From the NCBI RefSeq assembly GCF_000003815.2, contig NC_049991.1:6049372-6113371 (forward strand): DNA of 64,000 bases. The letters are read 5' to 3'. Shown in pieces: positions 31,510 through 64,000 of this stretch. Source of the DNA: Branchiostoma floridae. Lineage: Eukaryota > Chordata > Leptocardii > Amphioxiformes > Branchiostomatidae. Both the position numbers and the translations under genes were made by a program. The notes under the pieces are model-generated. The model saw nothing but the letters and a program-made list of their open reading frames with translations, did no database searches and had not been told where the DNA came from. Numbering within the stretch: the stretch's first letter is position 1; the number at the start of each line of letters is the position of its first letter.

Positions 31510-32541
31510 GGCGGTAGTTTGAATTATAACTCAGTATAGAAACCTTCACCTTTGACCCCTAGCATACACAATTTAAATCGCTAACTGGCTTATATTTTGG
31601 AATTATTTCTTTTCATGTCATCTTTGCAGCTAGAGTTCTGACCCAGTTGTAGCTGATTTCTGACCAATATCCACTTAGAGAACTGGTTTTTGTGACGTGG
31701 CTAGTAGTTCTTGAATAACGACGGAGACTATCAACACTCGGTAATGTGTAGTTTAGGATCAAAGGTTATTGGGTGAATATATTTGACAACTGAGATAATA
31801 AGATATTGAACAATGCAGGCCTGGGATTTATTTACCAGTTGATGATTAATCTAATAGATTCTCTTAACACGGTGAGAATTTAAAATTACTTAGTCTTTTG
31901 TTTGTGAAAACAGCTGACAAGTAAGTGCAAAGTTAGATATTATTTACATGAATAGCAAAATTCTTTTCCGCAACCGATTGTTTTATTCAACGGACGCTTC
32001 ACTATGATACAGCACATATAGGTGTCGCTACATATGGATGCGGTGTTTACGATGCGGTCCTAAACGTAAATGATGAGTGCATGGTATAAAAAGATGTTGT
32101 CAAGTAACAGATGGCAGTGAAAAATATCGTCTTCAGTTGTAAGCGGTGATGCATTGCAAGCAAGGTTTGAACAATTGATGTTACATAGAGTACGTAATCA
32201 ATCAAATAATGTTCCTGTTGGATCAGTTTACTCATGATATTTGTGCTAGTACAGTGTATATATATGTATCATTAAAATATAATGTTTAGAATACCAGTGT
32301 CATCATGCATTTCAGTTTTACATTGTTTAAATGTGTTTGTTTGATTACTTTGACATTTATAAAAATATATCATAACCTAACGCTGCCGCATTACAACAAT
32401 ATTTTTTCAGTACCGTCACAGTAAACACGACATTTTCTCAGGCGTAGTAATGAGCTCTTTACTACAAAAAATCTGCCCCTTTTCCACTTGTTTACATTTC
32501 AAAAGCAACCACCAGCTTTGAGGACATTTTCCAGAACCACA
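31510..32541. other. Intergenic region between FAS1 genes A and B
   Basis: This AT-rich kilobase holds the promoter side of gene A and the 3' flank of gene B. No coding exon, RNA gene or clear repeat is visible. Confidence 0.5.
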
Positions 32542-35500
32542 CTAGTTTGGAGGAATGAGGACGGTGTCAATCAATTGCACAACCCCGTTGACTGCTGGGA
32601 TTGGAAGTCCGACAGTCTTTGCGTTGTTTATCATCACCTGGGGGTCTGTAAACAAAAATAAAGATATCAGAAATGTTAGATACTATATGAATGACTAAAT
32701 GAAAAAGATGATATGTTAATATGATTAAAAGTAAATAAATTGCTTTCACGAGGAATATGAGCAATCAGAGCTTTGCAACCACCCTTCAACCAAGACGAGG
32801 GGCGCCATAGGCTTTCTGCAACTTACTAGTATTATCCATCTACACACGTGTTATATTTGCAAAAAAAAAGCATTGCATGAGCGCGATTGATTGCTCATTC
32901 ATTGACCAAATGCTATAGATTTGGTCAGCCTAAAAATTCAGTTTGTTCAATTTGATGTTTAGAAGTTCCAATTCGTCTCTGATTCATTGGAAACATATAG
33001 AAATACGCAACAACCAACTTAGATTTGGTAAACGGTAGTATGTCTTTCTTTATTTCTTTGATAACAAAGGCTTCACACACCTGACCCAGGTTTAGCGCTG
33101 ACGTGACACACAAGTTTTTCCTTTTGTAAGGTCGTAAGTTCCTCCCCATCGCCTAAGCCTGCCTTGTAGTAGACTCCACTGACGACGTGATAGGTCAGAA
33201 CTTCTGTCAGTGCCGTCACGTTCTTCAGAAGACTAGGCAGGGTTCCGTTCGGTAGCTTGTTGAAAGCATCGTCGGTTGGAGCGAAAAGGGTGAATGGTCC
33301 GTCACCTACCGGAGAAGAAAAATAACATTTTGTAAATCTTTACTACAGTAAAATATTGGTGAAACTACACCATTCACCCCCTTTGTGAGTCGACTATTCC
33401 AGTCTTGCCCAGCATGCTTTAAGCTCCCACCATTTTGTTTTTACCATCTTTGTTTGTTCTTCTATGACCTTTATACTGGCTTCCTGGAGCCTTTCTCGTC
33501 ACAAGTCACAGTTTTGTTAATCGCTTTGATACTATGATCATGATCAATTGTATCATTTCGTCGCTATGTTTGCGCAGACTACAAAGGGATTTTTGTTGAC
33601 TGACAACACTTGTCCTTGTGGGCTTTCGTGCGTTTAGTTACTTCATATAGTCTAGAAATTGATGATAAACATGATATACAATTCTTTTAAAACATTTACG
33701 GATCTTATTCAGTGTTTTAGAAATCAGCTATAAGCTTGTTTTCATTGTTTTTTTATTATTCTTAATTACAAAACATTAAAAAATATAAATATAGTCTTTA
33801 CTGTATTTCAGGGAAATGGCTGGAGATTCTTACCATCTAAAGCACTTCCAAGACCAGCTTTTTCGATGGCTTCCTTTAACACGGACAGGTTCTTGTTGTT
33901 GTTGATTTCTCCGTCCACGGTTAAGGACGGGAACGGGTACAAGACCTGGTCCACCACGTGCACCACCCCATTGCTGGCCTTGTTGTCTGGCTTACTCACT
34001 AGGGAACCGTCAGCTGTGATCGTCTAGAATTTGACATAAATTGTATGTATTGTTTTTGTCTAGGTCTATTGGCATCGCCATGTTGGATTTTGACGTCATG
34101 TCAGCGCCATATTGTTTCCGATTGACTTTTGATTCTCCGCCAAAAAGTGTAACATGCCACGCAAACCTTTCCAATTTTGCAAAAAACTGCTCTCTAGTTT
34201 AGCTTGAAAGATGATTGTCAAAACTAACATGATAAATAATATCATGAGGTGTAACATTTCTTCGTAGGATGCTATCACAACATATTCTATATCTTTTACA
34301 TCAGTTGTTAGACCTAAAGCGTTTGACCAAACTAAGAATGCACGTTATGAGTTGTTTTAATGTCTGATACGTAGAATTTGAATATATTTTACTGACTGTA
34401 TCAAAACAATAAATCGATATGAAAGATCAGTTAGCAATACTGATATACAAGAACTAAATTAATAAAAGATAACGATACAGAGTCAGATATTTTTTCACCG
34501 TTGGAATACTTACGTTTGTTGAAGGATAGATGTTGATTCGCATCATAAAACCTTTTAGAAGTGTATCTATAAGCTGGTTGTTCTTCAAGTCGGTCGACAT
34601 GTACTCTTTGTTGCTGGCATGGAACGCCAGTACCTGTAGCAATAATCAGATATGATATCGGTTTGTAAAATGGATTTAAAAAAACTTTTAAAGGTACTCA
34701 TCTTGAAGATATATAAAGGAGATTCATATTATCGGGCAAAACCAACCATTCCTTCCTGGAAGAACAAATTTGGAGCACAGTAACATTCCTTATGCTTTTT
34801 TTGGGGGGAGGGGGGGGGGGTGCTAGACCAAGCCAACATTCCCAACCTGGGGAGTAACTTTGGGCCTGGGCCAACAAAATTTCCCATCTTGCCAATTCTC
34901 TACTACTCCGTCTTCCACCTCACATTATGGCACTTTACAATATTGAAAAAAAAAAGGTTCTTAATAATACACAAACTAAGGTCTAGACAAGTACACATAA
35001 GCCGAAAAGAATGCCTCCGATCTCATGATGGCATCTTTTGTAAAGATCGTTCCTAAAAACGCTATTTTGTACCGAGGTGTTAAATCTTATCACTACGTGC
35101 ATAAACTGTTAAACATTTAGAGTTAAATATTTACAACTGACCTCTCTAAGAAAGAGTGGGTTACTCAATAGCTGTTGTTTGATACCAGCCGGGACCTTAG
35201 CAAAGGCAGCATCTGACGGTGCAAATACTGTACACGAATCTGCAAAGAAAACACACACAAAAAAGAATAAAATATACAGAATCAAAGCAGGTCTACCAAA
35301 TAGTCTACAAGCTTGTATTTTTTAGTTAAGTAATTGCACAATGCAAAATTATGAGGCTGTGAAAAAATAGTTTAGCTAGTTAACGGTATACCAGAGTTCT
35401 ATTAGTTTTAATCTCTAGAAAAAATTAGAAAAGAATACACTTCTACTTGTACCAGAATTTAAAAAAAATGTAACTAAAATAAAAACGCTTCATATGTCAC

Positions 35501-36146
35501 CTTTGCTTTAGAAGCCAATCGCAGTTATATAATGCAAATTCCACAAAAATTTCCAAACGCTTACCGACGAAAACAAAACTATAACGCTGTTAACGTCACA
35601 TAACCCACGCATCATAGAAAAAGTGGGACACTTCGTCTTCCACTGCTTCCAGAAAAGAAGTCAAACCCTAAATACGTAGATTGTAGCTCTCAGCAGTCCA
35701 TATCATTGATAGAATAGTCACTCGTTTACACTTGTCACCATTGTTATCTATACCAAAGTATTTCATTTTATACATGTTTATTATATTTTCTGTATGTTTC
35801 ATGTTGCAATTAGCCCTCGGGCAAGAACTTGCAAATAAACTTCTATAATATATTTAGGAACATCATTAAATGGGCTAGATATTTTCAACTCCCTAACTGT
35901 ATGCTACCTTGAAATTCGCATTAAAAAAAAATGAATATTCGTATTGTGCCATTTAGGCTACCATCCATACCCTCTGCCCAGTTGACACGTGAAACACATA
36001 CCTGCGTCTTCTAGGGTAGGGCTTAGATCAGATACCTCCAGCAGTTGTACCAAACTCCTCAGTTGAAGACTGCGCATAACGTCTAAGACATTCTCCTTGG
36101 CGCTCACCGTGCAAAGCAGCGGAAGAAGTACTACTAGGAACTTCAT
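32542..36146 (-). CDS. Secreted protein with two fasciclin (FAS1) domains, gene B
   Basis: Six exons join in frame to 293 aa: 36146-36002, 35239-35142, 34633-34514, 34023-33834, 33305-33081, 32645-32542 (145/98/120/190/225/104 nt; phases 1,0,0,1,1). The first five exon lengths equal those of gene A. The signal peptide is [19 protein letters not shown]1-1 has [23 protein letters not shown] and [18 protein letters not shown]1-2 has [35 protein letters not shown] and the closing motif [15 protein letters not shown]. It is a clear tandem duplicate of gene A: exons 4 and 5 share [13 protein letters not shown] and YYKAGL. The exon 5 donor is GTGTGT, weaker than in its sisters, but it preserves phase. 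It is expected to be an extracellular-matrix or mucus-type adhesion protein; the ligand is unknown. Confidence 0.9.
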
Positions 36147-36224
36147 AGTTAGAGGTATAGAATAGAGGAGGTTACTAGTTAGGTCTGCGTCCTTGGGACT
36201 GTTTACAGTACCTTGGGGTGGGCC

Positions 36225-36260
36225 GTGTTCCACTTTTCTGTAAGCACGTGTCTGATAAGT
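36225..36260. promoter_or_regulatory. E-box-containing motif upstream of FAS1 gene B, duplicated 390 bp away
   Basis: GTGTTCCACTTTTCTGTAAG then CACGTGTCTGATAA lies about 80-115 bases upstream of the gene B start. A near copy at 36612-36646 reads GTGTTCTACTTTTTTGTAAG then CACGTGGCTGATAA. Both contain the palindromic E-box CACGTG. Promoter function is inference from position and duplication. Confidence 0.35.
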
Positions 36261-38982
36261 TGATATCTATACGCAAACACTAATATCCCTGTGATGAAAT
36301 AATACAAAAATCTCATTACACTTTTTGACAAGATCTTAAAATATCTGAAGGTTTTGTACTATCTCAAGAATAGATATGTATCGATTTCGAAAAGATCTGG
36401 AGAGGTTTTAAACAAAAAGATCTTGAAACATTTTTTTTACAAAATCTCAGCAGAGTTTTTTTTTAAACTTAAAACAAGTGCTCTGGAGTAATCTTTAAAA
36501 AAAATTGTAATTTCTATGGTTATTGTAAGGAACTACGTCGTACGAGAATGGAAATTGTGTAGTTCTGCCAAAATTATGTTCTTAATACTGTCAATAGACC
36601 CGGGAGAGAGTGTGTTCTACTTTTTTGTAAGCACGTGGCTGATAACTATTTGTAAACAATGGTGTCCATTTCTTCACTGTGTATCCGATCAAAGGTTAGT
36701 CGTATGTTTACGCAAGCCAGATAATCTTTTGCTACAACCTTTGCATTCATAAGTTAATTATTGGACAGTTGCCTGATATATGCGATGAAAAGACCATTCT
36801 TCTTTGTGTAAATAGACGTATCATTATTGATTCTATCGTGTGCAAATGCATGAATGACAGCCTCTCCGATGGTAGCCAGGTACCGATATTTACACTTTAC
36901 TTGAGAGAGGATACTACATCCCTTACGGAGCACCGGTGACTAACGTATATATTAACCTTAATAAAGTATAAGAGCACGGTCACACAGACCGTTCGATCGT
37001 CGTACGATTTTGATGCGGTAGAATTTTCAAGCAGGCTGTGACAAAACAAACCACTGACGATTCTCCAAGACAGCATTTTGTGTTGTAAGATAGTTGTACC
37101 AAAGAAAAGATGCAGGGCTGTCCAATAAAAACACATAAAGATAGCAATTGCACGACGACAGCAAGGCCTTTGTGACTGTACCACTAGCAAGCTAAGGGGA
37201 GCAAGGCGCTGTATATTGAGTGAAAAGTTATGCCTGCTCCAAATGGGACGGTAGGTCTTTAACTGATATAGAGAATATACTTTGTTAACATCCATGTCTG
37301 AATATATTCAGGTCCATATTTTATCTGTGGACATCGTTAGAAGGCAGACAGATCATCGCGTGTAACGACTAGTTGCTTCATGGGACCTTGGGGTCTTGTG
37401 GATCAGGATATAACCACAGCGGGACAAGAGGCCTAAAGTTACATACACCTGCCTAAAATAGCCGCTTTGGTTTACCACACGGCCGATTTGCTTTGTATTG
37501 TTTGAAAACGAACAGCAAATCAATAAACCAACACTCTTTGGTGATTTATGAGAAACAGGCACGTCTAACTCATAGCACCAATAAAAAAACGATTGTTAGT
37601 AAATTTATCTCGTCGTCTTGTGTGCTGACATGGACAACGTCGAACGTGAAATATTTTTATACAGTTTAAAGTAACATAATATGGTCAAATCGATCTGGAC
37701 AGCGGTCAACATTAAAAGCAAACAATCTACATTAGAAAATGAACATCTTTGGCCTGTTTAAACTGAGCAAACAATGGAGCCGACGCAATGTTGAATCAAG
37801 AAACTGTCAAGCGTAAAACGGCATGATAAATTAATAAAGAAATTATTACTTAGTTTACTAACAAAAATGTCACGTTTGTATTCTTTCTAATACTTATTTA
37901 TCATCTGTGCAATTAAGTGCAGACCTCAGATCCCTTGCGGGGCCAGCTAGTGTGAAGAGCAGTGTTTGGCAAAATCTTCTTTGGCACAATCTTATTACGA
38001 GATAAGCAATTCCACCACATTAGTTTTTAGCTGCATGGTATTGCGTGGGCATTGCATTCTTTACAAGCTTACATGTAAAGAATGCTAAACGGTTAGACAT
38101 TTTATGCGAATATACAAATATTATTCAAGCTGTCTAAATCCGTCCAAAATATCCACAGAAAAGTTTTTAAAATGTATAACTTTACTGTTTAAAGGTATAA
38201 GGGCAATCAAAAGTAAGCTTTAGATTACAAACTTTATAATCAAAATATTAGAAATTGCTAACTGCTAGAGAAAAAGCATTTCTAGAGAGGAACCATGTTT
38301 GTGTTCTTTATGCTGGCATGCATAAAATCTAATTTTAGGTTGTTCTCAAGGGCTTCACGTTTGTGCGTGACTTACAATAAAAACGATAAAAAGTCCGGCG
38401 GCAAGATCACGGTTATTAAGGAGGACATTATTGCGCTCTCATTGGTCTGTCACTCGTATGCAAATGTGTCAAAGCCAATCAGAAAATTTAATTAAGATTG
38501 ACAGGTTTGTACAAACAACCCGTTCATCACGTCTAAAGTGGAAGTATGTCTGCCAACAACGTGCAGTAGCCCCGGTTACCCCGGGTACAGTTTGGTTACG
38601 TATGTATGCCCCTCTGCTTTGCAGGAAATAGACTAAATGTTTTTGCAGACCATTGCACATAGTTTTTAATGCTTGTCACTGATTTCCCCTGGTTCATTTG
38701 CGTCTTCAACACTCATGGCTTGCATTTAAGGTGTTCCGGGGTATATCAACAGTTTTGCAGTTAAGGTGTTCCGGAGTATATCAATAGTCGGCCACTAACT
38801 TAAAGGTAAGAAAAAAATAGTCATGATGTGAATAGCTTATTTATTCAAAATAGGTATGGCAACCCTATGGTGTAATAAGGTTACAAACGTACATGATGAA
38901 CAGTTTGTTCTGCTGTAGATCTGACACTTTAAAGTTCTAGTTCATTGTAGATTAAGTTATCCTAGAAAGTTTATGCATGGTC

Positions 38983-42034: not shown

Positions 42035-45000
42035 ATGGATCGGACCAAAAAAGGAATGGGAAAGCAACACAGAACAAAGGTATTGAAGCAAAAGACAGAC
42101 CATGCCGAAGAAGATAACTGGGCAGAAAAAAATCTGAAAGCCCTCATGAAGAAAACAAGCTCCTCAAAGGAACTCGACCTGTCAGATCACCATTTTGAAC
42201 AAATACCTCCTGAAGTATTTGGTATTAAGGACATTGAATTCCTGGATGTGTCAAACAACCCTCTGGGTTCCATACCGGTGAACATAGCGAGTCTTTCCAA
42301 TCTGAAAGAGTTGAGAGCGGCTGGCTGTGGTATCACTGAAGTTAGCGGGAACATTTCAAGATGTACCTACCTGAACAAAGTAGACTTGTCTCGGAATCCT
42401 GGCATTTCTTCACTTCCTGTAACAATGAAGGAAAATCGGTACTTGAAGATCTTGGCTTTGAGTGGCTGCGAGCTAAAATCGCTTCCCAAAAATCTGACAC
42501 TCCTTACCATGATCGAGACTCTTGACCTGTCAAACAACGAGCTGACAACTCTTCCATCTGACATTTCAGCTCTGCAGCGACTTAAAGTCCTTATTCTCAG
42601 TGATAATGCTTTGGAGGGAATCCCAGAATCGGTTGAGTCTCTTGGCCATCTTCACTTCTTAGAAATGAAACGGAACAAGATGAACAACAGCCGAGGTTTC
42701 CAGAAGCTCAGCGTGCCCCCGCACTTAAAGACCCTGGATATGGAGGGCAACCATTCCTTAAAGATGTTACCAGAGGGTCTTGAAAATCTTGAGAGTTTGG
42801 AGGAGCTGAACATCAGCTACTGTGGCATTGAGACACTTCCAGACTCTATCGGGAATGTGACCTCAATAAAGCGGCTTCACCTAGCTGGCAACAAGCTGCG
42901 CAAACTTCCCGAAAACTTCGGAAACCTCCTCAATCTGGAGACCCTCGATCTTGAGGGGAACCGCCGTCTTTCGGGTTTGCCGCGCTCACTGTATCACCTG
43001 AGGGAAAATCTCCGAGGTAAACAGAGAGGGACAAATATCGGTCTCATTCTGGACAACTGCCCGGCGCTTGCACTTACCGAGTCAGAAATCGCCCAGGGAA
43101 ACGTTGTCTCTGTTCTTGCAGAGCTCCTCTCTGAGGAAACCATAACGAAGAGTACCACAATCGTCACTGCGGAAGTTGTTGAAGACACGATCATGGAAGG
43201 TCTGACAGAGAACATGGTTGCTGTGACTGAAGAATGTGTTTGGAACGACCTCATGACGGATGCCGCAAACGTTGCAATCTCAGACAAAGAGTTATCAGAG
43301 AACACCTTCCAAAGCATGTTGGAAGAGGTCTTGCCAGACCTTGTGAAGGGAATAGCCACAGAATGTGTACAGGAAGAAAGGGCCATGATTATCATGACAG
43401 GTGAGTTGTTGGAAGAAACAACGAGATCAATGACAGAGGAAGTGGCCACAGAAGCTGTGTTGGTAGATGCTGTAACGCGGGAAGTGGTGGATGAAATTTT
43501 AGAGGAAGTACGCCATGCAGCGACAGAAGAACTGGCTCGAAACACAGTCAGTGCTGACGAAGTCTCATGGGGAATGATGGGGACAATGTTAAAAGAGGCG
43601 AAGGCAGCGTTAGTGAATGAAGTGGCTACAGATGCTGTCCTGGTAGATGACGTGGCACGGGAGGTGATGGATGATTTTTTGGAGGAAGTATCACAAGCAA
43701 TGGCAGAAGAGCTAGCTCGAACCTCAGTCCATGTAGATGAAGTATCATGGGAAACGATGGAGAATATGTTAGAGGAAGCGAAGACAGCGTTAGCTTATGA
43801 AGTGGCTACAGATGCTGTGACGCAGAAAGCAATGGATGAGCTTTTGGAGGAAGTATCAAAAGCAATGGCAGAGGAAATAGCTCAAACCACAGTCACTGTA
43901 GATGAACTATCATGGGAGATGATGGAGGAAATATTAGAAGAAGCGAAGACGCCGTTTTTAAATAAAGTGGCTACAGATGCTGTGCTGGTACATGATGCGA
44001 CTCGGAAAGTTATGGATGAACTTTTGGAGGAGGTATCACATCCAATGGCAGAAGAGCTGGCTCGTACCGCGGTTGAAGTAGATGAAGTCTCATGGGATCT
44101 GATGGAGGAATTGTTAGAGGAAGCTAAGACAGCTTTAGTAAATGAAGTGGCTACCACTACCGTGCTTGTCGATGAAGTGGCGTGGAAAGTGTTGCAAGAG
44201 CTCTTGAAAAGACAGACCAAGAAAATGATCAAGTCAATCGCTTTGAAGGAGGAGGAAGAATGCCGTCTAGCAACAGAAATGATGGACGATTTCGTGGACG
44301 AAATATCCAAGGCAACAGCTGAATCAGTCGCCATGGAAGTGGATGAAGAACTCCGTCTGGGCCAAACAGTTCCAAATGAGTACGACACACAGACTAGGTG
44401 AGTGTTAAAAAATGTAGCCGCTTTTGAAGCTTTGCAGTAAGATAATCACTGTAAAAAAACATTGATATGTTTCTTATGTCTTCACTTTACAAGACACTTT
44501 GCACAGAGCAGATATCTAAAATGATTTATTATTTCTCTGTCAACAGTCATAATATTTCAGCAGCCGCACACGGCGTGCAGTACGTGGACCTTCCGGCAGG
44601 TGGCAGGTTGAGCGTTCCACCAGGAGCTACTGATGAAGATATCTCCGTCATCACAGCAGTGCTGAACCCACACGGCTACGACATGACAATCTGTCTAGAA
44701 CATGACGAGCTCCTAGTCAGTGACATCCTAGAGATGAGGCCAGCGAGGATGGAATTCTCCAAACCTGTACAGCTGAAGATTCAGCACTCCTTACCAAAGT
44801 TCTACTGCGAAAAGGAGTTCATCGTTAAGACGACTGAAGATCTAGGATACTCATGGAGGACTCTGAAAACAACCAGACAACAAGAACAAGTACGTGATGA
44901 TTGTGCTTGCTTGCATATATTTTATCAACGAGTACAATTTCAAAGAAATATATGTTGCCTCTCTTCTCTGTTATGGAGGCTCATTATAGTTTGCAAATAT

Positions 45001-48000
45001 AGATTTTAGCTTAAAAAAATAATGCTATGTTCGGTTTCAAGCTATGTGTAAGATCTGTACAGGTTTGTGTGTACAAATCAAGCTATAATTAAATCATTTC
45101 GTTTATTGCAAACTTTCTAGGGGAGGTGGTTCGTCACGGTCAATGTGGACCATTTCTCGGAGTTCGTGGTCGTTGCAAGGCCACGAGAACACCTTCAGAG
45201 AGTGAAGACGGGGCAACTATCAACGTTAAGTTCATCCCAACAGACAGACGTCGAGATGTTCTTCCCTAGGGACTGTGTGCCGTCCAGCAAAAATGTATCA
45301 TTCAAGGTTAGCGTATTTCTGTACTTATTTTATTTGCTTCATTCGGCTATAAGAAGTACAGTGCGAGGTTACCCAACTAGCCGGAGGCTACTATCAAGGG
45401 CTAGCCCTTGTAAATGGACATTGATGTCAATTAAATTTAAAAACTATAAACACGCCTTGATGTAAGATAATATTAAATATAACTTTAACTTTGAATTTTC
45501 CTTGTAACGAAGGTTCTCCCCGTGGACGCCGACACCCTGACGTGCGCTGGTACGGGTGAGAATGCCATCAGGGGGATCGACAGTATGAGTCATATCGTCA
45601 AGTTCTGCCGTGGTAGCAACCTGCTCCTCAGCAGCCCTGCCACCATCGTGTTGCCGCTGTCACCAGGGGACGGAGACGGCCGAGTTCGCGTGCTGAGCTG
45701 CGATGAGAGAGGACGGTGGGAAGACGTCACTGGCTATGTTGACGACATCGTCCTGCAAGGGTCAAAGGTGGCTTTCACAACCGACCAACTCAAATCTGGG
45801 TACGTAAATAGAGTCGCTAGCATTCATTGATACGAGAAAAGAAAGAAAGAGAGATAGGATCTGGTACTGATATTGCTGGCATTCATCTACTAGAGATATT
45901 ATCAAGAATGGGTTTTACCTTTTGACAAAACAAATTATCTGAGAACGATTCGAGTACAGCGATTTGGAATATGCGGAATAAAACCAATGAATCACAATGT
46001 GTACCGATCATTTCATTTTGTCACACTAGTACTAGTAGTTATCAACATTGTTCTTCAAAGATTTGAACCTACGCACATGTCGCCAATTACCGAAGTGTCA
46101 GACATACTGAACTAAAACAGTGAAATCAGTTATGACTCTCGAAATTAAGAAACTAAACAGAAAGGAAGAATAGGAATAAAAGCTTATCACCACACTCATA
46201 GATTTGAAAGTATCACAAGGAAATGGGAGTTAGATATTATTGTACTAGGCTAAAGTTTTATCAAACGAAAAGAAGTTTTAGGCTTATGCTATGCTTATTA
46301 CCAATGCAGAGAGCTTCCATGATAATGTAAAGTAAGATTATGTATTTCTTTAAGATTCACCGTTCTTCGTTGCGACAACCTGAATGATCCTACAAGAATA
46401 GTCAAGATGGTGATCAAGAACATCCGGGCCAGACAAGTCAGAATCCTCATCTTTAAGAAGTGGAAGGAACCCCGAGAGGAGGGAGTGATGTCCGCCCGGA
46501 TAGAGTGCGTGCTTAGTCAAAGGGTAGAAGACCGCATCGTCTACGCTGAACAAGTAGAAGGATTCGAGCGCCAGGTAATGATGCCACCACTCTGCTAAAA
46601 TGATGTCATGAAATATTGATAACACTTTTTTCTGCACGGATGTATGCTCTGCAGATGGCCAGCTAAAGTGAAGGCCAGTATAGTCTCTAAAAATGCAGAA
46701 TAAAGAGACTCTTTTTACACAACCAATGCTTTATTTTGTCACCTTCTTCAGGGCAATTCTGACTGGTTCATATTGCACTGCAGGACAGGTGTCGCTGCTC
46801 ACAGTTCAGATGTGGTCACAAAACGTAAAGCATTTACATATTTACAGGCAGCTTTATGCAAAATATTGCCCTGAAGAAGGTGACAGTCACTGAAACTTCG
46901 GTGAGAATAAAGCATTGGCTGTGTAAAAAGAAACTCTTTATTCACTGACGTACAAACCTGATGAAACTATTCACGGAGCTCTGAAAATGCATGCATATAA
47001 GACAAATGATTACCTGAGGCTGAACACAGGAGTTATTCTTACCCAACTTAGAACTACATGGTGTTTATAAAAGATGCCCAAAATATTTTTCCAGGTAGGC
47101 ACACCCACCCCTCCTATCCGCATGATGGAAGGAGAACAGATCTGCGTCATATTCGAAGGCAGCATCCGTCCCGTTGAGAACGACTGCGGAGTCGACTACA
47201 CCTTTTACTGCGAGAGGCCGCGTGTGTTGGAGTTTGAAGTAAAGTTTGTGGACAAGGGCAAGGGTGCAACCTCCAGGGTTGAGCTGTATCCAGGGCGGTT
47301 GGAAAAGCTTTTTCCCGGGACAAAAAGAAGGAAAATACGGGGTCCAACGATTCAGAAGAAGCCACCGCCACCACCACCGCCTAGAAAGCAAACTACACCT
47401 CCTCCTCCTAAGATAGAAAAACTTAAGCCACCGAAACCAACGCCTTCACCTTCGCCAAAGCCTCCACCAACGCCTTCACCTCCATCTCCACCAAAGCCGT
47501 CACCTCCAGCTCCACCAAAGCCTTCACCTCCACCTCCACCAAAGCCTTCACCTCCACCTCCACCAAAGCCGTCACCTCCAGCTCCACCAAAGCCTTCACC
47601 TCCACCTCCACCAAAGCCTTCACCTCCACCTCCACCAAAGCCTTCACCTCCACCACCTCCGCGGCCCAAACCACTTATGACCAGGGGTGCCTAAGCATTT
47701 GCACGATCCCTATGAAATTCGTACGAATATTATGTGATACACACGAATCACTATGCGAAAACGCACGAATATTATGAAATTCGCACGAATCACTATGCGA
47801 AATCGTACGAATTTTATGAAATTCGCACGAATCACTATGTGACACACACGAGCCTTATGTGATTTGCACGATCCTTATGCGAAATTGCGCGACCACTGGC
47901 GGGGTCACGTGACAAACGGAGCGGGATTTTCAAGATGGCGGCTTCGCCGCTTCGGCGACTGAAAATACGATGTAACACGCCGAAATGAAGCTAAACAGTA

Positions 48001-50696
48001 GCTCACAGGCTATCAAATACATCTTTGCGACGGTAAATGTCCATTCCATGCCTTGAAATATAAATATCTCGGGTAGAAACGCTCAAAATCATGCCTCCTC
48101 CCGGCCGCCGTTTTTGCATAAGGATCGTGCAAATCACATAAGGCTCGTGTGTGTCACATAGTGATTCGTGCGAATTTCATAAAATTCGTACGATTTCGCA
48201 TAGTGATTCGTGCGAATTTCATAATATTCGTGCGTTTTCGCATAGTGATTCGTGTGTATCACATAATATTCGTACGAATTTCATAGGGTTCGTGCAAATG
48301 CTTAGGCACCCCTGATGACTGCGGAAATAACTCCACCTACGGTAAGCAAAATTACACATACTATGAAAGAAGTCTTTGAACTTCATCTGCCGACTAAGAC
48401 GATACAAGTCCAGGAACCAGTCTGATAGCTGACAATGGCCTAAGATGATGTTCTATCTTTATGTATAATTTCAATTAATAAGCCCGGCATAATAAGTCGA
48501 TATAGTCATACTTAAAGGACATTTTTTGGCGAGTCTATTTAAATGCAATGTGTCCTTAAGCAATGACGTAACTATCAGTTAGAACATTTAAACAATTCTC
48601 TAATTGTACGCATTCCTTAGGCAATCATATGTGACTACTGGTTAGCGTGCCAGCGATTCAAGAACACTTTGGGAATCGGAGGTGAGAAAATATGATTCGT
48701 TCAGTATCACCGTTCTTCTGAATGACACTTTGCTAACATCAACCAGAACGTAAAATGGTATTTGGCAACGCACTTACTTTTTTAGATTATAGATTGATTT
48801 TGGTAGCTCTGAGAAAAACCAACGACTTACGCACCTCGTATTTAGTGAATGAGGCCTTACTTACACTTGCGTCTGTTTCAGACAACTACTTTTCCCCTAC
48901 CCACGACAGATGTTACTGTCAGACATGTCATAAAGGCAGGGGGGACGACGATTCCTATTTCCGGGGAAACCCGGAGACAAACTATGCGAGGCCTGTTGGC
49001 TGGAGCAGGATTGGTCTTAGGTAAGAAGAATGTTGTCCTATATTCATTTTACGTTATTCGGATTTCTCTGAAGACATTTACCTTATAGTTACAAGTGAAA
49101 ACTATGATGCAATGTTATGACTCGCTATGGTCGTATTCACAAAATGCTTTTTTATGACAAGTCTACTGTATTTACTTTTAATGATAATACATGTCATAAC
49201 AAAATCTTGCAAATTTTACCATACAGGGTAAATGAAGCGTTCAAAGACGAACAGTTGAAAGTGTTCACAGACTGGCATCGCGCGTATCATGGGACCATGT
49301 CGAGTTCTGTGAAGCAAATCATGCAGACGAGCTCACAGCTGCTCATGCCAGGTAAACATACTTATCTTACTTTACTACGTTTGCCAAAGAACCACTCAGT
49401 TTTCAGCAATCGTCATAGAAATGTCACATTAAAGCTCTGCTCGGCTATATCATTGACTCGAATGCCGTTGGTGCAAGCAGAAGTTGTCATAGCCTCAGTA
49501 CCATCCTCCGTGGTGACCGCTGGCTCACTACTTTCGCTTGCTTAGCAAGCGAAAGTAGTGAGCCAGCGGTCACTTCGGAGGATGGTACTCAGGCTAAGGT
49601 TGTCATAGACTACATGTATGTGTTTTATTTTCATTTGGTTACATCCTCCGTTATATGTCGTGCTGTGTTGTGTTCTGCCATGTTGTTCTGTGTTAGGATA
49701 TTGTGCGTTGTTTGCGCTATGCTGCATGCGCGTGGTGTCAATAGAATAAAAATTTTGATATTTGCATGTTAATATTTATAAAATATTGCGTTCTACCTCA
49801 CAATGTTTAATGTTCAGGAGACGTGGCATCCGGGGGTTACGAGCTGGGACCAGGAAAAGGAAGGGGGTTTGACTCCGTACAGGTGTTTGTGTCCCCAAGC
49901 ATCAAATATGCAGGACTGGATCGTTACGCAGAACAGATCAGGTACGTAAGTATGTATAGAATCTTTAGTAAGAATGTATAGAATCTTTGTAAAAAAAGTA
50001 TTCAAAACGAAAAAATTGTTTGAACTGTACTAACAAATTTAGGTTTCTTCAAGTATGTACATCCCATATCATTGCACGAATATTTTCAAGTAAGTTGTAG
50101 TTGAGACGTCAAATAGCTAACTGAACATCAAATCATTTTCTAATAAAAGGATTTCTATTCCATTTTAAATTAGGTCTCTGATCACCATGTATGCAAGTTA
50201 CGATAAATGTTACTTCTAAAAACGCAAGATTTAGTTTAGTTGATTTAGTTTAAACCATTGTGATTTTTCACACTTCGGAGTAGCAAATATGTTATTTAGG
50301 GATAGACTGCTTAACTTCGGCTACTAAACGTATATCTTGTTTTGACAGTAAGTCTTCCTGATCCCTTTTGTGCCCTTTATTTTAAGAATGATATTTCTGA
50401 ATGCTATGGAGATACAATTTCTTTGAGGTATGAGATAAAAAGTGCAAACTCTCCTCTGTCTCACATTTTCCAACAGGTTCAACGACAAGCATGACGGAAA
50501 GACGTACACAGCACGTGTCGCCTTCCAGGTGTGTGTCCGACCGAGCAGCTACCAGGTCATGCAGGAGACGCTGGGCTTCACCCGCCGTGGTGAAACCGTC
50601 GACCCGCTGTTTAGCAACGAAGAGCTGGAGTGGTACACTAAGGAAAGAGGGGTGCACGCACTATACGGACTTTTGGTCAAGTTAGAGCCCTGTTAG
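42035..50696 (+). CDS. PIDD1-like LRR-ZU5-UPA protein with a NEURL4-type C-terminus; interrupted by a transposon
   Basis: Eleven exons: 42035-44397, 44547-44889, 45121-45306, 45513-45799, 46355-46574, 47095-48341 (contains a 633-bp transposon), 48621-48681, 48882-49020, 49227-49351, 49818-49941, 50477-50696. Phases agree throughout; without the insert the model is 1558 aa. Residues 46-327: about 12 LRRs (LDLSNNELTTLPSDISAL). 474-708: four 60-aa acidic helical repeats. 796-1060: two ZU5-like segments (LPAGGRLSVPPGATDEDI), with HFS at 913-915 as at the PIDD autocleavage site. 1060-1210: UPA-like region. 1222-1327: proline-rich. 1357-1558: Cys/His motif CYCQTCHKGRGD, then WHRAYHGT, SPSIKYAGLDRYAE and SNEELEWYTKERGVH, resembling NEURL4 C-termini from memory. 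No death domain is seen. PIDD1 scaffolds caspase-2 and NF-kB signalling; the role here is unknown. As assembled, translation stops at residue 1332. ATG 42035 has the context AAGATGG. Exon 7 is short and the least certain. Confidence 0.85.
43454..44158 (+). repeat. Four tandem 180-bp coding repeats
   Basis: The units start at 43454, 43634, 43814 and 43979 and encode 60, 60, 55 and 60 residues. Each contains VMDELLEEVS, MAEELART, VDEVSW, LEEAKTAL and EVATD-type segments. The third unit lacks 15 bp (five codons). They are predicted acidic amphipathic helices. Weaker relatives lie upstream (43130-43450) and downstream (44159-44370). Confidence 0.9.
46698..46943. repeat. Foldback element in intron 5 of the PIDD1-like gene
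   Basis: The arms pair: GAATAAAGAGACTCTTTTTA, CCAATGCTTTATT and GTCACCTTCTTCAGGGCAAT on the left match ATTGCCCTGAAGAAGGTGAC, AATAAAGCATTGG and TAAAAAGAAACTCTTTATTC on the right. The loop is about 100 bases. Confidence 0.85.
47358..47670 (+). repeat. Proline-rich coding minisatellite (24-bp units)
   Basis: The exon encodes repeats of PPKPSPPP or PPKPSPPA, eight residues per 24-bp unit, about seven copies between 47485 and 47660. They are preceded by looser proline-rich sequence. It forms the linker between the UPA-like region and the C-terminal domain. The glycine-rich frame on the opposite strand is its shadow. Confidence 0.9.
47682..48314. mobile_element. Inverted-repeat MITE inserted in a coding exon of the PIDD1-like gene
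   Basis: The 633-bp element starts CAGGGGTGCCTAAGCATTTG and ends with the exact reverse complement. The arms extend about 200 bp and are built of short alternating units (GAAATTCGTACGAAT, GAATCACTATGCGAA, TTATGTGAT). The target duplication ATGAC flanks it (47677-47681 and 48315-48319). The centre carries CAAGATGGCGG. The frame across the two flanks is continuous once one target copy and the element are ignored. In the assembled sequence the element introduces TAA at 47692-47694. Confidence 0.93.
49490..49596. repeat. Short palindromic foldback, copy 2
   Basis: A nearly perfect hairpin of about 107 bases. TAGCCTCAGTACCATCCTCC, GTGACCGCTGGCTCACTACT and TTCGCTTGCTTAGCAAGCGAA at the tip are mirrored on the right arm. 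It is the same family as 4034-4155. It lies in intron 9 of the PIDD1-like gene. Confidence 0.9.
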
Positions 50697-52364
50697 CCCT
50701 ATTCAGACTGGGCTTGTTTGGAATTATAAAATTTGCTGTCACTAGCCAAGGGCATAAATTCCTATTGACAGCAGTTGCGACCCCCCCCCCCTTTACTTTC
50801 AAGATGAGGTTTTACATTACTTACTATACAAATAGCTACGGTGAAAAAAAAGTCAAGCAGGTTACCGACACAACCATCATTAGCCAATGATGATTTGACT
50901 ATATGGATGACATCATCTGGAAGCCCCAAAACTTCTGCGAGCGTGCGAATAAAAAATCATAAAACCACTTCAATCCTGAAATGTAAGTGGTCAGGAAGGT
51001 TCAACAATGACTTCACCAGAGAGTTTGGAATAACGAACAATAGATTCGTAATTGGTCAAATCTTCTTCTTTGACCTTGGAACAGACTTTGACATTCTATG
51101 ACGTCAGTATATGTTTTACGTTTGTATGTAATCTATGCATTTGCTCCTTTTGCAGCTGTTTTTTTAAATAAAAACGGCGGAAAATTGATGAGCACGAGGA
51201 TGTCATCCATATAATCAAGACAATATGGCCTAACCTGTCTAAACCTAAAGTACATGACAAATACATAATGCACAAATAAAGCACACAATGAATCTACTAA
51301 TGCTCAAAAGGTACTTGAAAGTAACGTACCTATGACTGCCAAATGTAAAACACAACACTGTACACAAAAGCAACAAAATGGGCATGTCAATTTCCATGGC
51401 AACTGTTTATCATACATACATATAGTTCCCGGATAGTTGTTATTTCAATCTACACACAGTTTTCGTAAGTTTTAGTTCAATGTTCAGTCGACAAAAGTTT
51501 GAGTTCTGAAATCAAAAGATTGTTCTTCACATGCGCTTTACGTGATGATGATTTCACAGCTTTATTATCAGTATATTAGGTACTCCGTTTAACGTGTCAC
51601 ACATGTGTGTAAAACAAGGACATTGCCATAGTCCATTGGCGTGGCAACTATCGAGTACCATTCTGTATCTGTATGTGTTTAGCCGATTCTGCCGCCAGTC
51701 GGGGTAACGCATTCGCTGCAGCAGCTGGTTATATTACACGCAACTTTCTGTCACACCTGACACGAGCAGTTGGTAAAACAACATCGGCCCCACCCCTGAG
51801 GTATCGCCAAAATTGATCCAACTATTCTCATGGTTTAGTTCAAACGAACATCGCTGATAAAGAAGTCCATATGTTGTTCTGTTTTCTTGTTGTCATTGAA
51901 ATATCTTTGCGTCAAGCAACATATTAAATTCATAAAGTTAACAGTCATACAGATCCAAGTTTGGTCATTCGACGTCGACAATGACGCCATTGGATGGAAA
52001 TGGGGCCCAGACACACACTAAAGAATGGCTACCTCTTAGGACGATGACCCATTGTTCAAATAAGCGAAGACTGTTCCTCCGTCAACTAACCTTTGAATGT
52101 ATGCCAGAGGGGAGTGGGAGGGAAAGGGTAACAAATGTTTTAGAGTTGATTAAAATGCGACACGGTTTCAAAAAGTCAAATGTCAATAGATAAGAAGAAC
52201 TATATAATCGTTTCTTTTTTAATACACTTTCGGTAACTGATAGACAAAACGTAAAAAGAATATCGTACTCAGCTTTTGACAAATAGGTGCGGAATAGAAA
52301 AACCCAATCAATGAATGGACTTTGTCTCTTTATATTACAACAAGCAAAGGCGTCAGCCACAAGA
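50697..52364. other. Intergenic region between the PIDD1-like gene and FAS1 gene C
   Basis: Apart from the MITE at 50882-51230 and a short C-run near 50781, nothing recognisable is present. It contains the 3' flank of the PIDD1-like gene and the promoter side of gene C. Confidence 0.5.
50882..51230. mobile_element. MITE of the 'TATATGGATGACATC' family, copy 3
   Basis: The left end GATTTGACTATATGGATGAC and right end GTCATCCATATAATCAAGAC then AATATGGCC are inverted. The interior matches copy 1 (TTTGACATTCTATGACGTC, TTTGCTCCTTTTGCAGCTG). It lies about 190 bp after the stop codon of the PIDD1-like gene. Confidence 0.85.
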
Positions 52365-55300
52365 ATGGCGTACAAGATTTTGTTTCTGGTCCTGAGTCTT
52401 TTTTCTACAATTTGTGTCGTAAGATCCCAGAACGACATTATAGACGTCCTACGAGACTTTCAAGAGTTTAAGACTCTGTTGCAGTTGATACAGGAAGCCA
52501 ACCTTACTGACACTCTACGAGGAAAAGGTAACGTGTACTGCTCAGTGTCCGCCATTTTGTATTAGTAGTGGCCACCATTTTGGACAAAAAACAACATTAG
52601 AGAAGATGTTTTGGATTTTATGTTTTTAAAAACGTGAACAAATGAGACTAAAGTGCACATATCATGTGTTCGTATTCTTTTAATAGAAACCTACAAATTG
52701 TTATGTATAAATCTGATAGGGAAAAGAAGAGTGGCAATTTCGATAGGTGGGAGGGGGGTTGTTACGAATCAATATTTAGTACGTTACACAGTTATCTGTA
52801 ATGCAGTATTGTTGAAGTACTGAAACGATAAAAAGCCTAAGCAGATCAAGGTGATGTAACTCTTCTTTTTGTTCTATATCATGTTTGTGCGTTGAAATAA
52901 AATATTCATATCCATTTTCTCTCTGACGTTTTGCAATTAATTAATTTTCTTGACATTGCTTTACTTCATGGTGTATTGGATTGGTGTATTTGATGATTGA
53001 ACAAATGTTAATGAACCTGCTATGAAATTTCTATGATTAAGACCAAGCAGACAAAATGAGAATCATTTTAAGCCAGTAACGATACGTGATCGTTATCTAT
53101 TTAGGTCCCTTCACTGTCTTCGCTCCCGTGGACAAAGCTTTTGTTGAACTGCCAAAAGAGGCATGGAAGTCATTTCAAGACGTCAACATTCTTAGACAGG
53201 TGGGTAAATTCATTGAGTTTTTTTAAGCAAAGGGCACGTGGAAGTAGCAAGATCCAATAAGTTTCTCAATTTAAACGTAAATCGCACTTATTACTTTATT
53301 ATTAAGTTCCATTTCCACTATAAAATTCTTCACCTAAATGTCGGCAGCTTTTTATCAATGTGTCAAGAATTATGCTGCTTACTACCGCATGGTGGCGCTG
53401 TCGCAAAAATAAGACCGTTTTAAATGTAACAAAGTCTATACCCCTTCGAGACAGATTCTGTTCATGACTTGTTATTTTCTTTCAAAATTAGGGCGGTAGA
53501 AAAAATTCAAAACATAACTTAGGCAAATATATTGACAGACACGCTGCCATTGGTTGAACTCAGATCATTTTGGATTTGGCAATGTCTTTGCTGCTAATAT
53601 TTCAGGTGATGTCGCTGCATGTGGTACCAGGGAACGTCATGTCGTCTGAACTGAGGAACAACGTTCTACTGTCGTCTGCAGAAGGACAGAACATTCGCAT
53701 CAATGTGTATCAAAACGCAACTGGTGGCAAGGTACGTGTCTCTCTTAAACAATAACCGGTATACAGGCTTTTTGTTGACGTACGATGATGATGATTATAA
53801 TCTGAATCACATATGTCCATATTGGTGGGTATTAAGCAATGGCATCTTCGTTTGACTTACAGGCTTGCACTGTAATCCAACATGGCACAGATGACGCAAA
53901 AAAGGCCTGTATAATAGGATCAATGTTTTCAAAATAAGTTTTGGGCTACCTGACTGTGGTACATCTATATATTTGCTGGTGTATAATTGATAGTTATACT
54001 ACCAGTAATGTTATGCATCATGTCTTTTGCAACGAAACATTCCATTCTATTCTATTCTTCTAGAAATATTCCTTAAACACATCATGAAAATGTGAGCTCT
54101 ATGTGACATAAGGGTGAAGTTTGTCAGTTGTTTGCTGATATATTTTGAAAAATATTCAATCATTGAATTCAATTCATAAAGACGAAAAATGTATCATAGG
54201 GTAATGGGGGACCCTATCTATTCAAGATTTTCATTTCGGCATTAATTTTCATAATTATATCAGGCAATATTTGTCAAGTCTAACAATAACTATCATGTCA
54301 CGTGAAAGCTGATTAATGCTACGATAATAACGTAAACTGTTACAGGTTTTGACTGCGGACGGTTGTCCAATAACAAGGACCGACGCAAAGGCCAGCAACG
54401 GAGTGATACACGTGATGTCAGAGGTCATGTTTCCGCTTCCGGGGCCAAGCATCACGGAAACTCTCAGCCACATGCAGAACTTCTCATTTCTATTGACGGC
54501 TCTGCAAAAATCAGACCTTGCTGGGACACTGTCTGGTACGTACACAAATACAAAATTTATAGATGCCCTATTCTATCATATCTAAGGTGCGTGTCAGTGA
54601 AACATGATGTACTTTACTCATTCTATATAGTTTATTGCAAATTATTGCCCGAGGGCTGATTGCAGGTACAATGTAACATCAAAAGGGCAAACATACAAAT
54701 AGCGTAGAACGGTATAGAGTATGTGTACTTGTCTAAAAGCTAGGTCTAAAGTATAACTTGTTGGATTCAACTTCTTTTCATGAGACAGTAGAAGACAAAG
54801 TATCCTACCATTTTCTAAAATGTGTGGGTTCTGTAATGTTAGGAGGAAGGTAGTTTTCTTTTTGTATTTAACACGGGGAAATTTTGGAGGAATTTACTGG
54901 CCTTTTTAAATATGTCACAGTTTAGACTAGAATCTACATGACAATATTTCCAATTTCAAGAGCAGAGACCTTTTCAGGTTGATAGCAATGTGTTGTCATT
55001 CATTCTTAGGTTTGTTTAGTGACTATTTGACAATGCTTATGATCCTACGTGCTTGACCAATCAGGGGATGACACGTACACATTCTTTGCACCAACCAACG
55101 AGGCGTTCGACAAGCTCCCTCCGGCGTATCTAGAAATGCTTCTGACAACCAAGATGGCGCTGTCGGACCTGTTAGAGTTTCACATGTTCTACGATGTATC
55201 CTTCCGCCCTGCGTTCTACGACGGACTAAGGATAAGATCGCTACAGGGACCTTTTCTTACATTCAGAGTTGAAGGACCTCCAGGGCCAAGTGAGTATCGT

Positions 55301-55958
55301 CATTGGTATCTTATATTTCGTATTGATAATACTATTTTTTTCATTGTTTCTTCTTCCACACAGAAAATACATTAGAATGAATAAATGTTTCTTTTTTTAG
55401 TTTCTCTACAAATAATTATTTCTATAGGTTTTCTTTCTGAAGGATGTTTTTTCGTAGATTCTTAATGCGGAAAATGGAATAAGTTTCTGTACTATCATAC
55501 CTTTTTTCTTATCTCATGTCCAATATTATACTTATACTGTGTATGACAAGCAGATACATGACCTACATTGTATAGCACACATCACATGCACTAATAACGT
55601 GATAACAAAAAATGGAAAACTTAGTTTTCCATTTTCTCACTTGTCATCACTTCATTAGGGCAGGTGATCTGTGCTATAGGTCATGTATCTAAATGCTATA
55701 CCATTACCATTTTATGACATTTAGACATTCTTCTATCTTAAATTTATGCCAATGCCACATACGATGACGAATACATACAGTCTTGGACCATATATGCAAA
55801 GACTTGATAATAAATTCATCATGATGGCTAATAGCCTTCTACTTTCCACAGCTGCGAAATATATGGTAAACAACGCCACCTTCCTAGGACTCCAGCAACC
55901 TGCCGCTAACGGGGTCATCCATGTCATCGACCGAGTTATGATATCTCCTGAACCTTGA
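52365..55958 (+). CDS. Secreted protein with two fasciclin (FAS1) domains, gene C
   Basis: Six exons join in frame to 301 aa: 52365-52527, 53105-53199, 53606-53731, 54346-54535, 55065-55289, 55852-55958 (163/95/126/190/225/107 nt; phases 1,0,0,1,1). ATG 52365 is chosen because a signal peptide follows directly (MAYKILFLVLSLFSTICVV). FAS1-1 has PFTVFAPVDKAFVELP, MSLHVVPGNVMSSEL and NGVIHVMSEVMFPLPG. FAS1-2 has YTFFAPTNEAFDKLP and closes with NGVIHVIDRVMISPEP. The Tyr-His usually found in the domain (YHV) is replaced by FHMF in FAS1-2. Exons 4 and 5 have exactly the family lengths. It is the only plus-strand member and lies just after the PIDD1-like gene. It has no membrane anchor. Expected role is extracellular adhesion; ligand unknown. 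Confidence 0.9.
55552..55690. repeat. Foldback element in intron 5 of FAS1 gene C
   Basis: AGATACATGACCTAC and ATAGCACACATCACATGCA on the left mirror GGTGATCTGTGCTATAGG and TCATGTATCT on the right. The tip is AAAATGGAAAACTTAGTTTT then CCATTTT. Confidence 0.85.
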
Positions 55959-57643
55959 CCTTTGAACCCTGCCTTGTCTGCGACAACTACAGTATAATTA
56001 AACTCTTACCTGGTTACTACTATTGGTACAATGCAAAATATCATTCATACTATTTAGATTAAGGTTTCACTTGTCTAGATTTTTTTTGATTCCAGGGATC
56101 ATATTTAAGATATTGCATGCAGAATTCATTAAACCTGTTTATTGAAATAATTGAATGATAGAATATGATGATTAAACTATGCTTCATGCATTTGCAGTGC
56201 AGTTAGTAATGTGTTTATTTATTTGTGCCGTTACAAATAATATTATGTCTCGATGTCGAACACACACACACAAGGGGATATCTGACACCATAGGTGTTTG
56301 TAAAGGTGGTATCTCACTGCACTTGGCGCACCGGTGAGGCACTGCGGGGTTCGTAGATGACTCAACGAATTCCAGAGATAAAGAACGAAATTTCTTACGT
56401 TTTGTGCATTATTTAGTCTGCTAAGTTGTTCTTTTACGTATTACGCAATATATAAATTATAAGAAAATCGGCAAAAATAACAAAACAGTGCCACAGTGAA
56501 CGAACCCCGCAGTGCCGCACCGGGTCCCAAGTGCAGTGAGAGAACCTTTAGCCAAGTCCGAAACGAGAAGAAGTTTTTGCTAAGGAATTTCGCCATTAAT
56601 AACACGTAGGAGCAAGGGTGACTATACTGTCTGCCTTCCATGCCTTCTCCATCTCTGCCACTGGAATAGGTCTGCAAATGTGCAAACTTTAGGTAGTTGT
56701 TGTTGCTTTTGTTGTTTTTACCTAATTCTATCGTAATCCTTCTCAATCGTAAATCCAAACCAGCTCTCTTCACCAGGGTTATCAGAGTGGTCTCGTTCCC
56801 AAGCTTTTCAAAGCATGTCCACAACCGGTAGTGTCGGCCATTGTGCTTTTGTCACAAGCCAAATACAAATCAGCTACTATTACAAAGCTAGATAGTTATA
56901 TTCTGTTGGACAAGGTAGAATGTATGTAAAGCAAATTTTTTGTACTTTGGCTTAAAAGATAGAATTGGACCGTGCTTTGGCATACGAATGGTCTGTGCTG
57001 ACCTACATGTGATTGTAACACTGTGTATTTAAAGTCATACCATAAGTCACCAAATACACAACTAAACTATGCCCAAACATATATACGAACTTGGACCTGA
57101 AAATCTAGGACAAATTGCTAAACATATGTGGGAAACACGTGAGGATACAAGACTCGTATGTGTTCTTTATCAGGTATTCTAAAACTATTATAATAGTGGG
57201 AGGAATTACTATGACAATCATTATTGACACAATAAAAGTACAACAACTTTCACAAAGTCTTCTACCAATATTCGTGGAATGACTTACGTATGATAATATT
57301 TATTGACATAACAAAGGTAAAGTGATAAAAAGATTTGATATAATAATTAAGTAGTTTTGTTAGGTATTCTACAACTATAATAGGAGTTTTTAATATGATA
57401 ATCTTTTGTGACACAAAAGTACAGCACCTTTCTACAAATGTTGAGAGAATGACTTACGTCTGATAAAATTTATTGACACAACAAAGGTACAGCGATTTTG
57501 TCAGTTTTTCTATAACTATTAGTAAGATGAGTTGTATGTATAATCTTTGTTAACATGACAAAAGTACAGAGGATTTCGTCTGGTCTGCTTTATCTACATG
57601 ACATTGTACATACAAATCAGATCATACTCATGAATTAACATAT
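55959..57643. other. Intergenic region between FAS1 genes C and D
   Basis: Genes C and D converge here. The region holds the exon 1 relic at 56722-56890. Two GCAGTG/CACTGC-flanked segments at about 56310-56350 and 56490-56540 (CACTGCGGGGTTCGTAG and GAACCCCGCAGTGCC) form an inverted pair. The rest is AT-rich, with recurring TTATTGACACAACAAAGGTA-like stretches at 57220-57560. Confidence 0.5.
56722..56890 (-). pseudogene. Relic of a FAS1 gene exon 1
   Basis: The minus strand aligns with exon 1 of gene D. AQWP then VVDML, and after a one-base frameshift EKLGNETTLITLVKRAGL, parallel AQWPLTIVDVL and EKVGNETTLISLAKQAGL. A GTAAAA donor-like site follows at 56721. The start codon is missing, small indels disrupt the signal-peptide region, and no downstream FAS1 exon is found between 55960 and 56720. 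Confidence 0.8.
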
Positions 57644-63211: not shown

Positions 63212-64000
63212 TTACTTTCTTTCGTAGACTAACTCATAGTGCATGGATGGCGGCATGAGGACGGTGTCAATGAGCAGTATGACGCCGTTACTTTCTGCTA
63301 TCTGTGCGATGATGGTTGCGTTGTTAACCATAACCGGCGCTGTGAACGCATGGAAAAACACATTAGGTGACCAAACTATATAGAATTGAACATATGAAAC
63401 GCAAAGATAAGCTGTAACTACATGAAAACAAAGACAAAAGAGACAAAACATCATATCATGGCCCAGCTAATGCAAGGGCTCGTCAAGAACATGTCAAGAA
63501 GACCTTTGCTATGAAACCATATATGATATATTTTCGGATAAATTGTATTACTACCGATGGAGAAAAAATTTCACCTCAAACAGAGGAACTATTTCTGGTT
63601 GGTTTTGTGTTTTCCACCTAAAACTCAACATCCTTTAGATAGATTTGTTTCAATTGTGGCATATGCGTAGTTATTAAGATTCTGACGATACAGTTGGAGC
63701 AGGTTTTTTTTTGGCTAGTTAATGTAGCGTTTCTCCCATTTTGAATGTAGTAAGTAGTGTGGTTTCATTTCATTTTTCAAATTCGGTACATCATTTTACA
63801 AAGGATTGAGTTCCACGAACTTTAGTGGTGCTGTAATTGGTTGCAATGTACTTTTCTACCCTTTAACAAATAAAACGTACGAAATAGTGTTTTTGGATTC
63901 AATGTAGCTATAACGTTAACGGGATTTTTCTTGGCATTCTGAAAAGTGACCTACCGTCCCTGGAATTCTTTATAGTCACAAATTTTCCTTCCAAGGTCTT
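63212..64000 (-). CDS. Fasciclin (FAS1) protein, gene E, last two exons only (runs off the right edge)
   Basis: The last exon is 63339-63212: after a CACAG acceptor it encodes PVMVNNATIIAQIAESNGVI and LLIDTVLMPPSMHYELVYER then K, stop. The preceding exon ends at 63955 with a GTAGGT donor in phase 1, and its visible part (to 64000) encodes KTLEGKFVTIKNSRD, matching RTVQGKNVTIKASSR in gene D. Both belong to the second FAS1 domain, and the tail matches gene D (FELVQNKK / YELVYERK). The N-terminal exons must lie to the right of the window. Confidence 0.85.

Follow-up and report, generated by a model that had tools for sequence, protein, structure and literature searches.

The window, a stretch of 64,000 nucleotides on contig C13 (6049372-6113371) of a genome of 513,431,437 bases in 431 contigs that was searched as a whole, carries a receptor gene at 42035-50696 on the forward strand. 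The gene consists of 11 coding exons whose introns are GT-AG and in phase (Table 1), and its domains follow one another in the order LRRs, helical repeat array, ZU5, ZU5, UPA, proline-rich linker and NEURL4-type domain. The exon chain of the original prediction held for exons 1-6 and 8-11, and the four C-terminal peptides quoted with it are encoded in the gene; exon 7 was absent from it, as were the transposon that interrupts exon 6 and the paralogues described below. Fasciclin-type exons lie on both sides of the receptor, at 27199-36266 (reverse strand), 52287-56000 (forward strand) and 58093-63466 (reverse strand), an assignment based on a match to PF02469 (5.2e-19) for 33076-33339 and made by eye for the others, with 52287-52562 having no Pfam match. 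A collagen triple-helix exon (PF01391, 1.1e-17) is present at 22762-23034 on the reverse strand. No Rfam family reached its gathering score in the window.

Table 1. Coding exons of the receptor gene and the element inserted in it (positions in the window).
Feature	Position	Strand	Content
Exon 1	42035-44397	+	Start codon, LRRs, then helical repeats (60-residue unit)
Exon 2	44547-44889	+	First ZU5
Exon 3	45121-45306	+	End of first ZU5 with HF/S motif VNVDHFSEFVVVARP; start of second ZU5
Exon 4	45513-45799	+	Second ZU5, without HF/S (ankyrin ZU5-ZU5-UPA alignment, motif scan)
Exon 5	46355-46574	+	First part of UPA (ankyrin alignment)
Exon 6	47095-48341, interrupted	+	Second part of UPA, proline-rich linker to 47681; resumes after transposon; donor 48342
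MITE-like element	47682-48314 (633 bp)		203-nt inverted arms, 99% complementary; inside coding exon 6
Exon 7	48621-48681	+	AIICDYWLACQRFKNTLGIG; intron phases 0 before and 1 after; opens NEURL4-type domain
Exon 8	48882-49020	+	CYCQTCHKGRG segment; possible metal-binding CxCxxCH
Exon 9	49227-49351	+	WHRAYHGT; ART-like motif 1 (His)
Exon 10	49818-49941	+	VFVSPSIKYAG; ART-like motif 2
Exon 11	50477-50696	+	NEELEWYTKERG; ART-like motif 3 (Glu); stop codon 50694-50696

The LRRs occupy about residues 40-340 of exon 1 (limits set by eye) and match Pfam LRR families with E values down to 5.3e-28. N-terminal leucine-rich repeats of this kind, which are a feature of PIDD1, are recognized by Pfam both in the window gene and in C194, one of two full-length paralogues; the other, C13b, lies on the same contig as the window (C13:6.92 Mb). 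Tandem repeats had been claimed for this part of the protein and were recovered as a 180-bp (60-residue) DNA array at 43439-44154 with 4.1 copies, for which the predicted structure is helical, with low scores (mean pLDDT 42.3, pTM 0.20). Both the LRRs and the helical repeats of exon 1 are kept in C13b and C194.

The ZU5-ZU5-UPA core follows the PIDD1 arrangement. The first ZU5 is recognized by Pfam (2.2e-11, exon 2), and exon 2 is 87-88% identical to that of the window gene in C13b and C194 and 62% identical in a third paralogue, C19b; the corresponding values for exon 5 are 89% in C13b and 69% in C194. The second ZU5 and the UPA each lack a Pfam match of their own. The second ZU5 is identified only by alignment of the 429-residue ZU5-ZU5-UPA segment with ankyrin-3 (whole-sequence E 1.5e-8), and the UPA by the extension of that alignment to segment residue 408, the better stretch (residues 129-408) reaching E 4.8e-5 alone. 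PIDD is cleaved at two HF/S sites, one following each ZU5, and the parts of such proteins remain associated (PMC3210808). In all four genes in which exon 3 was read (the window gene, C13b, C194 and C19b), HFS occurs once per protein, at the same site after the first ZU5, and HF/S is absent after the second. The PIDD-type autocleavage proposed originally is therefore half PIDD-like, having its motif at the first site and not at the second. C19b has an NFT in the UPA region. Pfam gives a weak Peptidase_S68 match in the window gene (E 0.15) and does not list this family at E<=1 for full-length C194.

The C-terminal domain comprises 222 residues encoded by exons 7-11 and, judged by sequence comparison, shares homology with the NEURL4 C terminus. 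A NEURL4-like gene on contig C14, which has 15 Neuralized exon matches, ends in five exons that are homologous to and collinear with exons 7-11. Four exons match between the two genes at E 2e-20, 3e-12, 9e-8 and 2e-5, exon 8 being 51% identical, and exon 7 matches over 16 residues with 56% identity (E 0.047). The introns within the domain agree with those of the NEURL4-like gene, whose positions were read by eye, in both position and phase at all four sites (phases 1, 2, 1, 2), indicating that a NEURL4-type gene supplied the domain as an exon cassette. Upstream of the domain, Neuralized repeats had no match at E<=1 in the pieces of the window that were scanned or in full-length C194. Elsewhere in the genome, a gene with six Neuralized matches in a row (C10:10935668-10955435) was considered as NEURL4 and rejected, as the 19 kb fetched downstream (from 10955000 on) had no NEURL4-type domain whereas the C14 gene carries one.

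The concern that an exon encoding a death domain had been overlooked between 48342 and 48881 was correct as to the exon and mistaken as to its content. Exon 7, which had the top splice score among 10 phase-filtered candidates in this interval, encodes the start of the NEURL4-type domain, and its residues recur in C13b, C194 and the four contig C19 copies, six paralogues in all. Pfam scans for Death domains gave no match at E<=1 in three pieces of the window, all outside the proline-rich linker, or in the intact full-length C194, and none of the Death candidates falls in the window among the 150 scored of 588 in the genome. A death domain in an overlooked exon was rejected on these grounds.

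The MITE-like element in exon 6 is flanked by ATGAC at 47677-47681 and 48315-48319 and brings a stop codon (47692-47694) into the exon. In C13b, exon 6 runs through RPKPLMTAEITAPT to GTAAGC with no insert, the linker ending in PLMTAEITAPT immediately before the donor, and the exon is likewise uninterrupted in C194 and C19b. The range scanned holds a single internal GT-AG pair that would bring back an open frame in the window gene; its donor scores 5 of 9, versus 6-8 for native sites, and its use skips exon 7. Because of the stop codon and this weak splice rescue, the protein of the assembled allele probably stops past the proline-rich linker, without the C-terminal effector domain. The chances appear about even that the family member at the window locus is dead or truncated, or that the insertion is present in the assembled haplotype only. 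The stop codon and the weak, exon-skipping rescue both argue for such a loss, and the 99% complementarity of the arms makes the insertion look recent; the remaining exons, however, are intact and their dN/dS against the paralogues is low (see below), so any loss would itself be recent. Either outcome is compatible with the explanation of the family given below. Intron 9 contains another short inverted-repeat element, at 49490-49596, a 93% palindrome that is 82% like window positions 4059-4155.

A genome-wide search with the C-terminal domain returned 42 exon-level matches, which were grouped into 12 genes including that of the window; one of the 12 is the NEURL4-like gene. Fusion of the domain to the ZU5-UPA core is found in five of these genes and is accompanied by LRRs in three, the interrupted window copy among them. 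C13b and C194 have the full order LRR-repeats-ZU5-ZU5-UPA-linker-ART and each have 11 exons with an uninterrupted frame between ATG and stop (1337 and 1269 residues, respectively). C19b encodes ZU5-ZU5-UPA-ART with no LRR match, and C19a has UPA exons and the ART-like domain; a long tandem satellite with N gaps lies upstream of the C19a UPA exons (C19:3780400-3787000). Splice sites in the paralogues were placed nearest to homology-based estimates with the phase of the window gene imposed, so the agreement in phase among paralogues is partly by construction, which is not true of the open frames.

These paralogues bear on whether the window holds one gene. Given that the frame of exon 6 is broken there and that the gene models were drawn from genomic DNA alone, a death-domain-less PIDD-like gene and an adjacent NEURL4-like fragment might have been wrongly joined. 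Such an error is highly improbable, since C13b, C194 and C19b repeat the domain order and end their linkers in TA[EQ]ITxPT, with frames open across the joins, and C19a carries MAEITAPT. The central claim of the original prediction, a PIDD1-like order that lacks a death domain and ends in a NEURL4-type domain within one gene, is borne out in complete form at two further loci and in part at two (C19b and C19a), and for this reason two separate transcripts appear very unlikely.

Comparisons of the window gene with C13b, C194 or C19b, module by module, gave dN/dS values of 0.15-0.45 in 14 of 14 cases; these are Nei-Gojobori estimates without a significance test, dS exceeds 1 and is near saturation for C19b, and the beginning of C13b exon 8 may include some intron codons, which would raise dN there. 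In a midpoint-rooted tree of nine of the 12 genes, in which NEURL4 forms a long branch, the domains of C13a, C13b, C194 and C19a-d split from those of NEURL4 and C15 with support of 98/97.

The C-terminal domain of human NEURL4 is tabled as ART-like, with the motifs HGS, LLS and ELE and its activity given as "not determined" (PMC7955679, Table 1). The window domain has HGT, FVS and ELE, with His 88, Phe 132 and the last Glu 201 in domain numbering, and the HG[ST] ... x[LI]E triad positions of the NEURL4-type ART-like domain are present. The ordered motif pattern with E[LI]E occurred in 7 of 200,000 shuffles, and a looser pattern with any xxE in 846 of 200,000. HGT was found in 11 of the 12 genes (the C5 exon was not recovered) and x[LI]E also in 11 (the C13c letters were not seen). 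The first position of motif 2 is aromatic in all 12, being Phe in 11, the genome's own NEURL4-like gene included, and Tyr in C19b. Glu 201 and the exon 8 residues C31, C33, C36 and H37 are invariant in all nine domains of an alignment that omits the incomplete C5, C18 and C13c and in which the rows of C19a, C19c, C19d, NEURL4 and C15 were assembled by hand from exon matches, their junction residues being approximate.

As a single sequence or as a profile, the C-terminal domain has no match in Pfam, PHROG or PDB, and the Pfam PARP family (PF00644) matches none of the nine aligned domains at E<=5; assignment of the ART fold thus rests on the homology to NEURL4 and on published work. Scans of IMG/VR and GTDB genome contigs, of a kind that finds close relatives only, gave no convincing relative of the domain, and the single plasmid match (E 0.9, 24% coverage), which coincides with no annotated gene, was likewise unconvincing. 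The literature describes the NEURL4 domain as ART-like and reports ADP-ribosylation for NEURL4 (PMC7955679, PMC9149570, PMC10450202); one source gives the role in ADP-ribosylation as proposed (PMC8003356), and another calls it PARP-like, yet outside the PARP family (PMC10450202). The window domain had been described as linked with ubiquitin regulation. Given what these papers say of NEURL4, and with HGT, FVS and ELE present, a predicted ART-like domain fits better.

We consider it probable, at roughly 0.65, that the window gene is one of a few related genes for PIDD1-like receptors, probably self-cleaving, that have a predicted NEURL4-type ART-like effector in place of the death domain. The observations comprise the architecture, the homology to NEURL4, the conserved HF/S and triad positions, the low dN/dS, the recurrence at several loci and the transposon in the window copy. 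With the death domain swapped for an ART-like domain, such a sensor might bring an enzyme of its own rather than call a caspase. The main rival accepts the same architecture and takes the ART-like domain to be a pseudoenzyme that acts as an adaptor by binding NAD+, ADP-ribose or a protein partner. Motif 2 argues against an enzyme and for such an adaptor, as its first residue is Phe and not the Tyr of PARPs (Tyr occurs in C19b only), and Table 1 of PMC7955679, besides its entry for NEURL4, lists the ART-like domains of PARP13 and TASOR as inactive. We regard the adaptor as the less likely reading, however, because the His and Glu positions are kept wherever they were read (11 of 12 genes each), dN/dS is low, and, according to a review, mitochondria make almost no PAR once NEURL4 is lost (PMC9149570).

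If the family does consist of receptors with an ART-like effector, the LRR/helical N terminus would sense a signal or bind a partner, and the first ZU5 would cut itself at HF/S, with both parts staying associated. Activation would then free the C-terminal part, consisting of the second ZU5, UPA, proline-rich linker and ART-like domain, which may cluster through the UPA. The clustered ART-like domains could use NAD+ to modify targets, or could drain NAD+, in place of the recruitment of RAIDD and caspase-2. More tentatively, and at somewhat below even odds, such self-contained, autocleaving innate sensors with a UPA-clustered ART enzyme instead of caspase recruitment might constitute a "PIDDosome" acting through ADP-ribosylation or NAD+ loss, whether to signal or to kill, that arose when a NEURL4 exon cassette moved behind ZU5-UPA and then expanded, the N-terminal sensors being exchangeable (three loci have LRRs, and C19b has no LRR match). 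The family may have an immune role.

The closest known system is PIDD1 (LRR-ZU5-ZU5-UPA-death domain), the core of the PIDDosome, which shares with the window family the LRR N terminus, the tandem ZU5, the UPA and the HF/S after the first ZU5. The family differs in having no detected death domain and no HF/S after the second ZU5, and adds the helical repeats, the proline-rich linker and the NEURL4-type ART-like domain. Ankyrins (ZU5-ZU5-UPA-death domain) share the ZU5-ZU5-UPA tandem and are the top PDB sequence matches, but they have ankyrin repeats in place of LRRs and retain a death domain. We know of no HF/S autocleavage in ankyrins. NEURL4 shares homology across the C-terminal domain, the same four introns, and HG[ST] and E[LI]E; it carries the domain behind Neuralized repeats, whereas the window family has it behind ZU5-UPA, and human NEURL4 has Leu in motif 2 where the window domain has Phe. 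NLRP1 and CARD8, in which a FIIND (ZU5-UPA) is followed by a CARD, also combine ZU5 autocleavage upstream of a UPA with a C-terminal module (PMC3210808), cleavage being predicted in the window family; they differ in that the module is a CARD, while the family has two ZU5s and an enzyme-like domain. TRADD-N proteins of oysters and cnidarians with macro and PARP/ART domains are likewise invertebrate immune-type scaffolds with a C-terminal ART, and UPA-ZU5 fusions to TRADD-N are also described; their ARTs, however, are classed as PARP or PARP14-like and are preceded by death-fold/TRADD-N domains (PMC8195603).

Within the parts of the open-licence PMC literature covered, ZU5-UPA joined to a NEURL4-type ART was not found, nor was any open-licence PMC full text that has NEURL4 together with Branchiostoma; the sections consulted of a paper on amphioxus domain shuffling describe other hybrids, with no ZU5 or PIDD among them (PMC2575513). 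If the proposed reading is true, the autocleavage switch formed by ZU5-UPA, which in PIDD1, NLRP1 and CARD8 is known to release death-fold modules, would in an animal also be joined directly to an enzyme-like effector, and NEURL4-type ART-like domains would gain a second, possibly immune, context. C13b and C194, as uninterrupted genes, are suited to direct tests of cleavage and NAD+ use.

The other copies of the domain, C19c, C19d, C15, C5, C18 and C13c, had no ZU5 or UPA match in the upstream DNA examined, and some have other neighbors. An SH2 open frame (4e-9) lies upstream of the C15 copy (C15:14662800-14667800, reverse strand), and a frame with a Mind bomb SH3 repeat (2.9e-7), at positions 2-223 of the stretch C13:9364000-9369000, lies upstream of the C13c copy. 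The copies at C5:12577099-12583177 and C18:17384328-17386101 are nearly identical to each other and are on different contigs, possibly reflecting a recent or transposon-aided duplication. A retroelement-like frame, recognized by eye, is located upstream of the C18 copy.
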